A DNA stretch of 41,394 bases from assembly GCA_903921785.1 (NCBI GenBank), contig CAIXRH010000008.1, positions 1-41,394 on the forward strand. Reading direction: 5' to 3'. This DNA comes from an uncultured Pseudomonadota bacterium. GTDB lineage: Bacteria; Myxococcota_A; UBA796; SXON01. Below, piece by piece: positions 17,413-23,922 of the stretch. A model generated the notes under the pieces. That model saw only the letters and a program-made list of their open reading frames with translations, was not told the DNA's origin and did no database searches. Numbering within the stretch: the first letter of the stretch is position 1; each line of letters opens with the position of its first letter. Made by a program: the position numbers and the translations under genes.

Positions 17413-17880
17413 TCAGAACCAGTAGTGCACCGTCGCCGCCGGACCGCCCGCGAACGTCTCGAAGATGAAGGGCTCGCCGATGTCGATGTTGAAGCCCCAC
17501 TCCACGCCGAAGCCGAGGTTCTCCAGCCCAAAGAGGAAGAACTCCGCGCCCATCGCCGGCTGCACCCGGATCAGGCTCGTGCCCCCCGCGGCCTCGTACG
17601 CGGCGCCGCCCGCGACGTAGAGCGAGAGGTTGTCCTCCGCGACGACCCCGTAGAGGAACCGGCCGCCCGCGACGACACCCAGCGGCGCGTCGCTCTCCAC
17701 CTTCACGCCCGCGTCGAGCTCGACCTGGAGGTTCACCGCTTTGCTCGCCGTGGGAAAGGCGTAGCGCAGCGACAGGGCCGGCGTGGCGCCGAGACCGGCG
17801 TGGAAGCCGAACCCGAACCGGCCGCGGAGGTCGGCGGCTTCGGCGGGCGGGGTGGTGAGGGCGGCGAGGGCCAGGAGCAT
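17413..17880 (-). CDS. Small outer-membrane beta-barrel protein
   Basis: A 155-residue exported protein. A signal peptide covers about residues 1-16 (AEA cut). The rest is alternating amphipathic beta strands with Gly turns (GRFLYGVVAEDNLSLYVAGGAAYE) and ends in the aromatic HYWF, typical of the C-terminal Phe recognised by the outer-membrane assembly machinery. The length suits an 8-stranded barrel. It lies 38 nt after the gene at 17919 and may be the last gene of the kinase-led unit. No function can be assigned. Confidence 0.78.
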   Translation of the reverse strand: MLLALAALTTPPAEAADLRGRFGFGFHAGLGATPALSLRYAFPTASKAVNLQVELDAGVKVESDAPLGVVAGGRFLYGVVAEDNLSLYVAGGAAYEAAGGTSLIRVQPAMGAEFFLFGLENLGFGVEWGFNIDIGEPFIFETFAGGPAATVHYWF

Positions 17881-17918
17881 CGGCGGCCGCTAACCGGGCG
17901 GGTCCGCGCGCGCCGCGC

Positions 17919-18782
17919 TCACGGCTCCCACGGCGCAGGGGCGGTTCGGAGCAAAAGCACCCCGGTCCAGGACGGGGCGCCGTCGACGGAGATCCGCGCC
18001 CGACGGAGCGTGAGCTCGGGCAGCCGATAGCCGACGGCCCAGGCCAGCAGGCGCTCGGGGAGCAAGGTGGTGTCGTCGGGCCGCTCGATGTACTCCTGCC
18101 TCCCGACGTGAACCTCCAGCTGATGACCGCCGAAGTTGAGGACGAACTCTTCGTCCGGCGCGGGCGCGATCCACGGCGGGGGGCCGGTCTCCGTCACCCC
18201 GTCGACCACCAGCGCCCCCGGGCAGCTCCCGCGGGGATCGAGCAGGATCAGTCCCCGGTTGTCCACGGCGTAGAGCGCGGCGCCCGCTTCGTTGCCGACG
18301 GCGTGGGTGCGGGCGAGGAGCACCCGGCCGTCGAGGTTGGCGCCCTCGCCATTTCCGCGGTCGTCGTTCGGCACGTCGAGGATGCCCGTCGCGCGCCCGG
18401 GCGTCGGGGGACAGCCGGCGGCGACGTCGCGCGAGCTGCCGCGCACCCGCATCGCTTCCCCCTCGACCCGCCAGCTCCAACCGCCCGGTTCATGGGTGAG
18501 GCCGTCCGCGGTGCCGTGGATGCCGTCGTCGTCCACCGTGGCTGGGCCGCTCACCGCGCGGTGGGCGAGCACCGAGCCCTCACGCCGCAGGACCGTCACC
18601 CGGCTGGTGAGCTGGTCCGCGAACAAGCCGGTGTTAGCGACCGTGTAGTCCACGACCGACACCGACTCGTCGTGCCCTGCGCCGATGACCAGCCAGTCGT
18701 CGCGCTCGGGGCGCACCCCCAGCCGCGCCGCGACCAGGCCGAGGAGCCCCACGGCGAGCCAGGCGCTCACCCACCGGGCCAT
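17919..18782 (-). CDS. Membrane-anchored protein of unknown function
   Basis: A 287-residue protein. The Met at 18782 gives an N-terminal hydrophobic anchor or signal (WVSAWLAVGLLGLVAARLG) and overlaps the upstream gene by 16 nt. The remainder is beta-rich with many Asp/Gly/Trp residues, reminiscent of a lipocalin- or beta-propeller-like extracytoplasmic fold, but no motif is firm. Two Cys residues are separated by about 60 residues. It is preceded by a run of lipoprotein genes on the same strand, so it probably acts in the periplasm with them. Confidence 0.65.
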   Translation of the reverse strand: MARWVSAWLAVGLLGLVAARLGVRPERDDWLVIGAGHDESVSVVDYTVANTGLFADQLTSRVTVLRREGSVLAHRAVSGPATVDDDGIHGTADGLTHEPGGWSWRVEGEAMRVRGSSRDVAAGCPPTPGRATGILDVPNDDRGNGEGANLDGRVLLARTHAVGNEAGAALYAVDNRGLILLDPRGSCPGALVVDGVTETGPPPWIAPAPDEEFVLNFGGHQLEVHVGRQEYIERPDDTTLLPERLLAWAVGYRLPELTLRRARISVDGAPSWTGVLLLRTAPAPWEP

Positions 18783-21629: not shown

Positions 21630-22360
21630 CAGAACTGCCCCTGGATCGCCACGTAGCCCGGGCCGAGCATGAGCGGTCCGCCTTCCCCCCACAGGCCGAG
21701 CGCGATCCCCCCGCCCAGCCCGAGCGCCCCGGTGATCATCAGGATGTCGGCGGCCAGCGCGTCGCCGCGCTCGGCGTCCAGGGCGGCGGCGGAGGAGGAG
21801 GAACAACGGAGGGCGCCGCCCGCGTCGGGCGCGCAGCCGTCGGCGGCCTCGGTGTGGGCGCCGACGGCGCCGCCGCCGAGCCCAGCGCCGATCCCCAGGG
21901 CGACCAGCCCCGCACCGGAGACGGCGAGCGGGAGCGGGCGGAAGAGGGTGGTCTTCGTGGGTTCGGGCGTCGGGGTGGCGACCACCACGGCCGCGGGCGC
22001 CGGCGGGGGGGGTGGAGGAGCGGCGGCGGCGGCGGCCTTCTGCTCGGTGGCGCGGCGTTCGAGCATGGTGATGCGCCGGTCGAGCGTCTCCCGCTCGTCG
22101 GCGGGAGCGTAGGCGCGGTAGCGGGAGAGCACGTCCAGCGCCTCATCGTACCGGGCGAGCCGCTCCAGCGCGTTGGCGATGTTGAACAAGAGCGCGGGGC
22201 GTTTGCTCAGCCGATACGCCTCCTCGAACGCGGCCACGGCGTCTTCATACCGGCCCTCGTCGTAGAGGGTGGCGCCGTTGTCGTACAGCTCTCGCGCCCG
22301 CGCGTCGTCGCCGTCCTGGGCGTGAGCGAGGTGCAGGGCGAAGAGCAGCGCGAGGGTCAT
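21629..22360 (-). CDS. Exported TPR protein with C-terminal membrane helices
   Basis: A 243-residue protein. A cleavable signal (ALLFALHLAHA) precedes at least two TPR units (residues about 22-90; ARELYDNGATLYDEGRYEDAVAAFEEAYRL and a second copy). A short coiled coil and Ala/Pro linker follow, then two glycine-rich hydrophobic stretches, LPLAVSGAGLVALGIGAG (about 160-178) and ILMITGALGLGGGIALGL near the end. This TPR plus paired helices layout is common in Myxococcota proteins next to Ser/Thr kinases and may link periplasmic lipoproteins to the membrane. The start overlaps the kinase stop (ATGA). Confidence 0.8.
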   Translation of the reverse strand: MTLALLFALHLAHAQDGDDARARELYDNGATLYDEGRYEDAVAAFEEAYRLSKRPALLFNIANALERLARYDEALDVLSRYRAYAPADERETLDRRITMLERRATEQKAAAAAAPPPPPPAPAAVVVATPTPEPTKTTLFRPLPLAVSGAGLVALGIGAGLGGGAVGAHTEAADGCAPDAGGALRCSSSSAAALDAERGDALAADILMITGALGLGGGIALGLWGEGGPLMLGPGYVAIQGQF

Positions 22361-23922
22361 GGGCTCCAGGGGTCCTTGAGGTCTGAGCCGCTCGTCCGCT
22401 TCGTCGGGGCGGTCGGGGTTTCGGGCGAGGAGGTCGTCGGGGGGAGGGGCGCGCCCGTTTCGGGCGCCGCGGTTCCGGGACCGCGCTTCGCGGGTTCCTT
22501 CGGTACAGCGGCCGTGGGGTTGAGCACGACCTGTCGCCGCACCGAGTCCCACGGGATGCGGATGCGCACGGTGGTGTAGCCGGGCGCCGCCACCTCGACC
22601 TCCCAGACTTCGCCCGAGGGGATGGTGAGCGTGACGGATCCGGACCCCAGGACCGCCCCGTCTCGCCGAACGGTGGCGGCGGCGGGGATGGTGCTGAGCA
22701 CGACCGGGGGCGCGGGGCGGGCCGGGGCCGCGAGGACCGCCTCGGGCGCCGACGTGGGCGTGGAAGCGGCGGCGTCGCCGCGCTGCGAGCTCCACCACCA
22801 GGCGCCGAGCGCGAAGATCACGACGGCGGCCCCGAACATCATCAGCGCGGCCATCGCGCCGGTGGCGGCGAGCAACGGACCCTTTCGGCTTCGCACCGCG
22901 GAGACCATGGTGGACGCGCTCGGCTCCGGGGTTGGCGCGGGGGCCCGCGGCGGCGAGGGGGTGCGCGGGGAGCTGGGCTCCCGGACGAGTCGGCCCTGCC
23001 GAAGCTGGGGCGGCGCGACGGCCTCACCGCGGAGCTCGGCCTCGCAGAGCCGCAGCGCTCGAAGGAGCTCCTCCACGTCGGCGAACCGGCGCTCGGCCGT
23101 CTTCTCCAGGCAACGCTCGACCACCCAGCCGAGCGTGGGGCAGGCCACCAGGGCGGGGGCGTTGGCTTCGAGACGCGGCGGGGGCTGGTTGAGGTGCGCC
23201 AGCAGGACCCCGACGGAGTTGTCCGCGACGAAGGGGGGACGGCCGGCGATCGCGGTGTAGAGGATGACGCCGAGGGAGTAGATGTCGGAACGGCCGTCCA
23301 GCCGCTCGGCGCGAATCTGCTCGGGGGCCATGTAGGACGGAGAGCCGACGACCGCGTCGGTGCCGGTGAGCTCGTCGTCCGTCCGCATCTGCTTGACCAG
23401 CCCGAAGTCGAGCACCTTCACGAAGTCTTCGTCTTCGTCGTGGTTGAGCAGGACCACGTTCGCGGGCTTGAGGTCCCGATGGATGAGCCCGAGGCCGTGC
23501 GCCTCTCGCAGCGAGCCGCAGACCTGGCGGGCGATGTTGACGATTCGGGAGGCGGGGAGCGAGCCTTCGGCCTTGATCACCTGGTGGAGCGTGCGCCCGT
23601 CCAGGTACTCCATCACGATGTAGAGCAGCTCGTCGCCCACCTGGCCATGGTCGAACACGCGCACGGTGTTCGGATGGGTGAGCCGCGCGCAGACCGCCGC
23701 CTCCAGCAGGAAGCGTTGGCGGAACTCCTCCGCCTGCTCGGCGCCCCCGCTCAGCGCGAGCACCTTCACCGCCACCGTGCGCCCGAGCGGGTGTTGTTCC
23801 GCCCGGTACACGCGACTCATCCCTCCGCGGGCCAACGCAGAGGTGATCTCGTAGCGCCCGTCGATCTTCCGACCGATCAGCGGATCCCGGTCGCCGAGGG
23901 TCGGTGGGCGGGCCTCAGCCAC
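22357..23922 (-). CDS. Membrane Ser/Thr protein kinase with PEGA-like domain
   Basis: A Hanks-type kinase of about 521 residues. An N-terminal kinase domain has the glycine loop (LARGGMSRVYRA), catalytic HRDLKPANV, DFG in LDFGLVKQ and APEQ in YMAPEQI, so it looks active. A Pro-rich linker and a single TM (ALMMFGAAVVIFALGAWWW) follow. A periplasmic PEGA-type beta domain (STIPAAATVRRDGAVLGSG...GYTTVRI) and a Pro/Thr tail complete it. GTG at 23922 has AAGGGG six bases upstream; ATG at 23946 is possible but GGGGAG touches it. It leads the seven-gene unit and probably signals with those lipoproteins. Confidence 0.93.
   Translation of the reverse strand: MAEARPPTLGDRDPLIGRKIDGRYEITSALARGGMSRVYRAEQHPLGRTVAVKVLALSGGAEQAEEFRQRFLLEAAVCARLTHPNTVRVFDHGQVGDELLYIVMEYLDGRTLHQVIKAEGSLPASRIVNIARQVCGSLREAHGLGLIHRDLKPANVVLLNHDEDEDFVKVLDFGLVKQMRTDDELTGTDAVVGSPSYMAPEQIRAERLDGRSDIYSLGVILYTAIAGRPPFVADNSVGVLLAHLNQPPPRLEANAPALVACPTLGWVVERCLEKTAERRFADVEELLRALRLCEAELRGEAVAPPQLRQGRLVREPSSPRTPSPPRAPAPTPEPSASTMVSAVRSRKGPLLAATGAMAALMMFGAAVVIFALGAWWWSSQRGDAAASTPTSAPEAVLAAPARPAPPVVLSTIPAAATVRRDGAVLGSGSVTLTIPSGEVWEVEVAAPGYTTVRIRIPWDSVRRQVVLNPTAAVPKEPAKRGPGTAAPETGAPLPPTTSSPETPTAPTKRTSGSDLKDPWSP

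Follow-up and report, generated by a model that had tools for sequence, protein, structure and literature searches.

In the TorT-TorS, LuxP-LuxQ and ChvE-VirA systems, a periplasmic binding protein (PBP) reports the state of its ligand to a kinase in the membrane. For bacterial Ser/Thr kinases the closest described counterpart is GlnH-GlnX-PknG, where the kinase is linked to a membrane protein and to a lipoprotein that binds Asp/Glu (PMC6069109, PMC9769921, PMC8546545). The trigger that activates such kinases is an outstanding question in bacteria generally (PMC6069109), and the Ser/Thr kinase sets of myxobacteria are among the largest in bacteria (PMC2887360). No literature on such a system in Myxococcota was found among open-access papers. 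The locus described here lies on a contig of 41,394 nucleotides, the whole of which constitutes the window (G000:C8), from the 7.48 Mb draft genome of an uncultured member of this phylum. Seven minus-strand genes spanning positions 17413-23946 include those of a single-pass Ser/Thr kinase, a tetratricopeptide repeat (TPR) protein and a type I PBP lipoprotein, together termed the triad. Comparative sequence evidence makes it probable that the PBP lipoprotein is the sensor of an amino-acid-like ligand and that a TPR protein, by docking the kinase tail, allows it to control a kinase (at some loci a cyclase) in the cytoplasm. The original prediction, made from the window itself, was that the lipoprotein may serve as a ligand receptor through which the kinase is controlled from across the membrane; comparative support for it comes from conserved gene order, the absence of a transporter, two natural fusions and loci with the order cyclase-TPR-PBP.

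Organization and conservation of the triad

The first six genes overlap (junctions ATGA, TGATG, ATGA and TGATG, followed by a 16-base overlap), and the seventh lies close behind, after a 38-base gap. The description of seven minus-strand genes, six of them overlapping, is thereby confirmed from coordinates and junctions. That all seven form one unit stands in part: the gene order is real and recurring, but in function the unit is the triad rather than the whole set. According to gene maps, the complete order of kinase, TPR protein, PBP, two Cys-rich proteins (Cys1 and Cys2), anchored protein and barrel is kept in the same genus, and with small losses in the same family, where Cys2 is often absent. 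Outside the window's family the triad alone is retained, the four downstream genes being confined to that family. Genes of relatives were called with a home-made caller based on GC content at third codon positions, such that some starts are approximate and lower-GC loci may miss genes.

In many Myxococcota, predatory-type bacteria of soil and water, the gene of a lipoprotein of this build has those of a membrane kinase and an adaptor as neighbors, and none for a transporter. PBP relatives were found by sequence search in 74 of 187 relatives and by profile search in 188 of 379 Myxococcota genomes, the latter count taking in weaker matches, some of which are surely ordinary binding proteins. A contiguous kinase-TPR-PBP set, in either order, occurs in at least 13 family-level groups (f1, f3, f5, f6, f7, f15, f19, f24, f28, f32, f42, f43 and f45); the order is TPR-PBP-kinase in some families, and in others the PBP gene is inverted yet still adjacent. 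The PBP loci whose upstream side is intact number 59. In 31 of them a kinase on the same strand is no more than two genes from the PBP (at exactly -2 in 22), and in 40 a kinase on either strand is; a same-strand TPR gene is present in 34, and a TPR gene stands at -1 in 33. These numbers are descriptive because loci sharing ancestry are not independent. For comparison, genes of these loci at a distance from the PBP gave kinases in 8 of 95 cases. With about 70 kinases in 7.5 Mb of the window genome, a kinase two genes upstream is rarely expected for a given gene, yet it is found at more than a third of the PBP loci. Since full or near-full versions of the order recur in genus and family and the triad recurs across the phylum, the seven-gene unit is beyond chance; an absence of this order in relatives, which would have refuted the original prediction, was not observed.

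The kinase (22357-23946, minus strand; Pfam Pkinase, 6.6e-46) starts at an ATG at 23946, with a GTG at 23922 as a possible alternative. Its kinase domain (residues ~25-298) carries the catalytic Lys, HRDLKPxN, DFG and APE motifs of eukaryotic-like Ser/Thr kinases, and is followed by a transmembrane segment (~364-382), a weak PEGA match (415-473) and a Pro-rich tail ending in SDLKDPWSP. The PEGA-like domain of the original prediction survives as this weak match, which at 18.5 bits lies below the Pfam cut-off of 20.8 and is not conserved in the system: tails inspected by reading contain a recognizable PEGA domain in some triad kinases and a bare Pro-rich stretch in others. The proposal that PEGA is the likely contact was not borne out, and PEGA was rejected as a general sensor contact, because many triad kinases without it still keep the C-terminal peptide. 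The TPR protein (21629-22360, minus strand; Pfam TPR_2, 8.8e-08) is predicted to comprise a signal peptide, periplasmic TPRs, a Pro-rich linker, two Gly/Ala-rich hydrophobic segments (143-161 and 201-219) and a short C-terminal segment.

The PBP lipoprotein and its predicted ligand

The PBP gene (20214-21629, minus strand; Pfam ANF_receptor, 9.4e-13; phmmer matches to PDB entries 4gnr and 1usg) encodes a lipobox Cys9, a Cys module (C19, C25, C35, C41 and C50) and a LivJ/LivK-like binding domain. The ANF_receptor score of 48.3 bits exceeds the cut-off of 25.4, and homologues also exceed the Peripla_BP_6 cut-off. Of 71 homologues, 69 retain the lipobox Cys, and the Cys module and C110 are nearly invariant among approximately 73. 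Conservation extends to S149 (70/73), T170 (67/73), Y228 (70/72) and D305 (66/72), positions that we take to contact the carboxylate and amino group of an amino acid. The first three lie within the stretch that phmmer aligns to Escherichia coli LivK and 4gnr, and D305 corresponds to the acidic residue in the binding protein of the LIV transporter of this genome. Because these four residues are conserved, the ligand is predicted to be an amino-acid-like small molecule. Two tandem PBP lipoprotein genes occur at another locus (L091:940-4501, minus strand), and like pairs are seen in other f16 genomes.

Given its relationship to LivJ/LivK and its retained ligand residues, the lipoprotein could be an ordinary substrate-binding protein (SBP) serving an ATP-binding cassette (ABC) transporter encoded elsewhere, the kinase being merely co-transcribed. 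As first described, no ABC permease or ATPase gene lies within the seven-gene unit. The genome has just two permeases of family PF02653; their genes are adjacent on contig C38 and belong to a complete SBP-LivH-LivM-LivG-LivF operon, so that both have an SBP of their own; the LIV transporter was rejected as a partner on this ground, and no remote ABC transporter was found to pair with the lipoprotein. In addition, it is kinases and cyclases that accompany the PBP across many families, and two natural fusions join it to a kinase, which leaves the transporter explanation most improbable.

Ligand-free lipoproteins with a PBP fold are known, LpoA being an example, and the triad PBP might similarly be a structural activator of an envelope enzyme. 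The genome encodes two further PBP-type proteins, on contigs C55 and C110, without kinases, and the C110 protein is, on our reading, an LpoA-like TPR+PBP protein, which lends this explanation some plausibility. It is nevertheless very unlikely in view of the nearly invariant amino-acid contact residues, of an equally conserved stretch from W191-R192 to Q200, and of an architecture unlike that of the C110 protein.

Fusions and replacement of the kinase by a cyclase

In two relatives the PBP is part of the same chain as a kinase, with domains confirmed by Pfam. The L082 protein consists of a kinase (7-280), a transmembrane segment (322-340), a Cys-containing linker and a PBP (362-770); the L186 protein consists of a kinase (10-287), a transmembrane segment (408-426) and a PBP (481-903). 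These fusions suggest that the PBP is probably the sensor of the kinase. Both lack the DPW tail and an adjacent TPR gene, as expected if tail and TPR protein join a separate PBP and kinase, two cases being few. The L082 fusion (L082:4812-7919, minus strand) ends in an FGE-sulfatase-like domain, possibly a second extracytoplasmic module. When plasmid records were queried with a fusion and a PBP, no annotated kinase-SBP fusion was among the matches listed. Such fusions are presumably annotated in Streptomyces.

At three loci of one family other than that of the window (L075, L079 and L081), the gene before those of the TPR protein and the PBP encodes a class III cyclase (PF00211, E 2e-15 to 6e-19) instead of a kinase. 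Like that of the kinase, the catalytic domain of the cyclase is N-terminal; the protein also has one hydrophobic segment and a tail rich in Ala and Pro that ends in RVVED or SIVVE. The middle gene of L081 has no Pfam TPR match and looks by eye like its L075 counterpart. A SulP sulfate permease with a STAS domain comes after the three genes at L081.

These arrangements bear on whether two modules are simply stacked, a kinase-TPR signaling pair and a PBP that is a co-regulated envelope client or target rather than a sensor. Kinase-TPR pairs without a PBP do exist, and related TPR genes are plentiful in some relatives (8-28 matches per genome). In the fusions, by contrast, the PBP occupies exactly the place of a kinase sensor domain, and the TPR-PBP pair is kept where a cyclase replaces the kinase, which makes stacking unlikely and favors the PBP as sensor.

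The C-terminal peptide of the kinase

Triad kinases end, after a Pro-rich tail, in [DE]xx[DN]P[WFY] followed by zero to eight residues; in the window the coding stretch for this peptide (...SDLKDPWSP), recognized by comparison of kinase tails, is 22357-22386 on the minus strand. The strict peptide terminates 38 of 61 PBP-neighbor kinases, comprising 29 of 46 in a first set and 9 of 15 in a set fetched later from 20 loci. It terminates none of 46 other kinases (38 from the window genome, intact and not part of a triad, and 8 others; p 4e-13). A looser core of the peptide terminates 1 of 738 non-kinase genes. All 39 kinases with the looser core have D or E at -4, a position that was absent from the search pattern.

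In trees of the kinase domain, peptide bearers appear in several places, implying six or more changes. Constraining them to one clade cost 159 log-likelihood units (40 rows, kinase domains, the simple model LG+G4), and orthology as the sole cause of the shared peptide was rejected on this result. Scattered bearers and the cost of a single clade indicate that the peptide tracks the system rather than the kinase lineage. The sharing may alternatively have arisen if the tail was conserved and the kinase domains attached to it were swapped.

Other short endings are also found, namely [IV][DE]LL[DE] in families f24 and f45, which have the order TPR-PBP-kinase, and GLLPT-like ends in f32. Two kinases, L199 and L202, retain the peptide (KNPFNK and MDPFSN) at loci with no adjacent TPR gene, and in both genomes the top-scoring TPR protein is an orphan located elsewhere. 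The same genomes (G245 and G365) hold further kinase-PBP loci, L212, L213 and L214, two of them with a recognized TPR gene, whose kinases end instead in GLMPVK, GGLLPT and IFLPTGAK. The differing tails look as if they kept parallel systems apart.

TPRs often bind extended peptides, and the TPR protein is the favored candidate receptor of the tail: two kinases beside a TPR gene at loci without a PBP (L225 and L226) carry looser DPF endings, and the fusions have neither tail nor TPR gene. Direct binding of the peptide by the PBP is less likely, because DPF occurs in these kinase-TPR pairs and because of the orphan TPR proteins in the two genomes above.

Proposed model of signaling

In the proposed model, a small amino-acid-like ligand would be enclosed by the PBP lipoprotein on the periplasmic side, and the ligand state would be relayed to the periplasmic face of the single-pass kinase. 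The membrane-anchored TPR protein would bridge the two, with the DLKDPW-type peptide at the end of the Pro-rich kinase tail docking in it. Docking would gather PBP, TPR protein and kinase and may thereby alter kinase dimerization or activity. The output domain would be exchangeable for a cyclase, and direct fusion of the PBP to the kinase would render tail peptide and TPR protein dispensable. From sequence we infer lipidation, location, ligand class, physical contact, the TPR protein as peptide receptor and the control of activity.

Several points weigh against this model, besides the shared ancestry of the loci counted above. The evidence for it is comparative throughout, and the fusions number two only. 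Neither a kinase nor a TPR gene is near the PBP at 13 of the 59 loci, a few of which are cyclase loci, so some members of the PBP family do something else. The strict peptide is missing from 23 of the 61 PBP-neighbor kinases, some having other short ends and some none that is recognized. The DPF endings of L225 and L226 mean that the peptide is no proof of a PBP partner, and the separation of peptide and TPR gene at L199 and L202 is likewise adverse. Finally, the residue at lipobox +2 is Ser in 46 of 70 PBP homologues, which by the E. coli rule suggests sorting to the outer membrane and would separate sensor and kinase by the width of the periplasm. It may be speculated that the long Pro-rich kinase tail could reach the outer membrane.

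A bolder reading, offered tentatively and at somewhat less than an even chance of being right, is that Myxococcota possess a modular platform in which the PBP and a periplasmic TPR adaptor plug into interchangeable single-pass outputs, with C-terminal peptides as the plug. As one joint proposal, the outputs would be either class III cyclases or Ser/Thr kinases drawn from several lineages, and peptides of the DLKDPW, IDLLE, RVVED and GLLPT types would keep parallel systems in one cell apart.

Other genes of the locus

The last four genes of the seven-gene unit have no Pfam family and, judged by the gene maps, are family-specific additions downstream of the triad. The first two encode Cys-rich putative lipoproteins, Cys1 (19567-20217, minus strand) and Cys2 (18767-19567, minus strand; an upstream TTG start is possible), whose alignment reveals shared invariant cysteines and bears out the expectation that they are paralogues. 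Cys2 is predicted with high confidence to be all-helical, with no strong PDB match. The N-terminally anchored periplasmic protein (17919-18782, minus strand) is predicted by AlphaFold2 (mean predicted local distance difference test score 90.4) to adopt an AttH/Diels-Alderase-type double-lipocalin fold. Its top Foldseek matches are 6kbc, 6kaw and 2ich (E 8e-06 to 1e-05), and all 17 PDB matches at E <= 0.001 look like members of the AttH/Diels-Alderase group, with TM-scores of ~0.5. On the basis of this predicted fold, the unannotated family may have a lipid-like molecule as its substrate or cargo. The last gene (17413-17880, minus strand), whose position is kept in the family, encodes a small secreted β-rich protein, a putative outer-membrane barrel with no Pfam or NCBIfam match.

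The divergent neighbor (24105-26246, plus strand) encodes a membrane glycosyltransferase 2/cellulose-synthase-like protein with a PilZ domain according to Pfam. Several loci of the same genus have a gene of matching size in this divergent position, so the gene may be linked to the unit. On the other side, a cyclic-nucleotide-binding-like gene (14591-16061, minus strand) seems to continue in a second frame, possibly owing to a frameshift or an assembly error; its 14591-15106 portion resembles a receiver domain.

Comparison with known systems

The likeness to LivJ/LivK transport proteins lies in the fold family and the likely contacts to an amino-acid head group. The triad PBP differs in having no permease or ATPase partner, an extra N-terminal Cys module, and a kinase as neighbor or fusion partner. 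TorT-TorS, LuxP-LuxQ and ChvE-VirA share the principle of a binding protein that informs a membrane kinase, but they use histidine kinases and response regulators, whereas the output of the triad would be Ser/Thr phosphorylation or a cyclic nucleotide. As in the PknB/PASTA kinases (NF033483), the triad kinase has an N-terminal kinase domain that matches the model, one transmembrane segment and an extracytoplasmic C-terminal part; however, it scores 309.8 bits against a cut-off of 450, contains no PASTA domain, and its proposed sensor is a separate lipoprotein.

For a widespread group of kinases, the triad names a candidate sensor, adaptor and ligand class, plus a short peptide whose mutation would probe the proposed coupling. 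If the model is true, it represents a second, independently built route from a nutrient-binding lipoprotein to a Ser/Thr kinase, one in which a cyclase can replace the kinase as output. As in GlnH-GlnX-PknG, the lipoprotein, membrane protein and Ser/Thr kinase share one operon, a TPR domain is thought to supply the membrane link, and the proposed role is trans-membrane nutrient sensing. The parts differ. GlnH owes its name to homology with the glutamine-binding SBP of E. coli, in contrast to the LivJ/LivK-like triad PBP, which matches ANF_receptor and LivK-type models only. GlnX is a four-transmembrane protein with two periplasmic helical bundles, of which there is none in the triad unit, where the TPR protein has two hydrophobic segments. 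PknG is soluble and has a cytoplasmic TPR domain, whereas the triad kinase has a transmembrane segment and no TPR match, its TPRs residing in a separate protein and being predicted to be periplasmic. Because SBP family, membrane protein and kinase topology all differ, the triad is an independent variant rather than a member of the GlnH-GlnX-PknG group. By analogy, the best explanation of the triad is that it works like GlnH-GlnX-PknG while being built from different parts.

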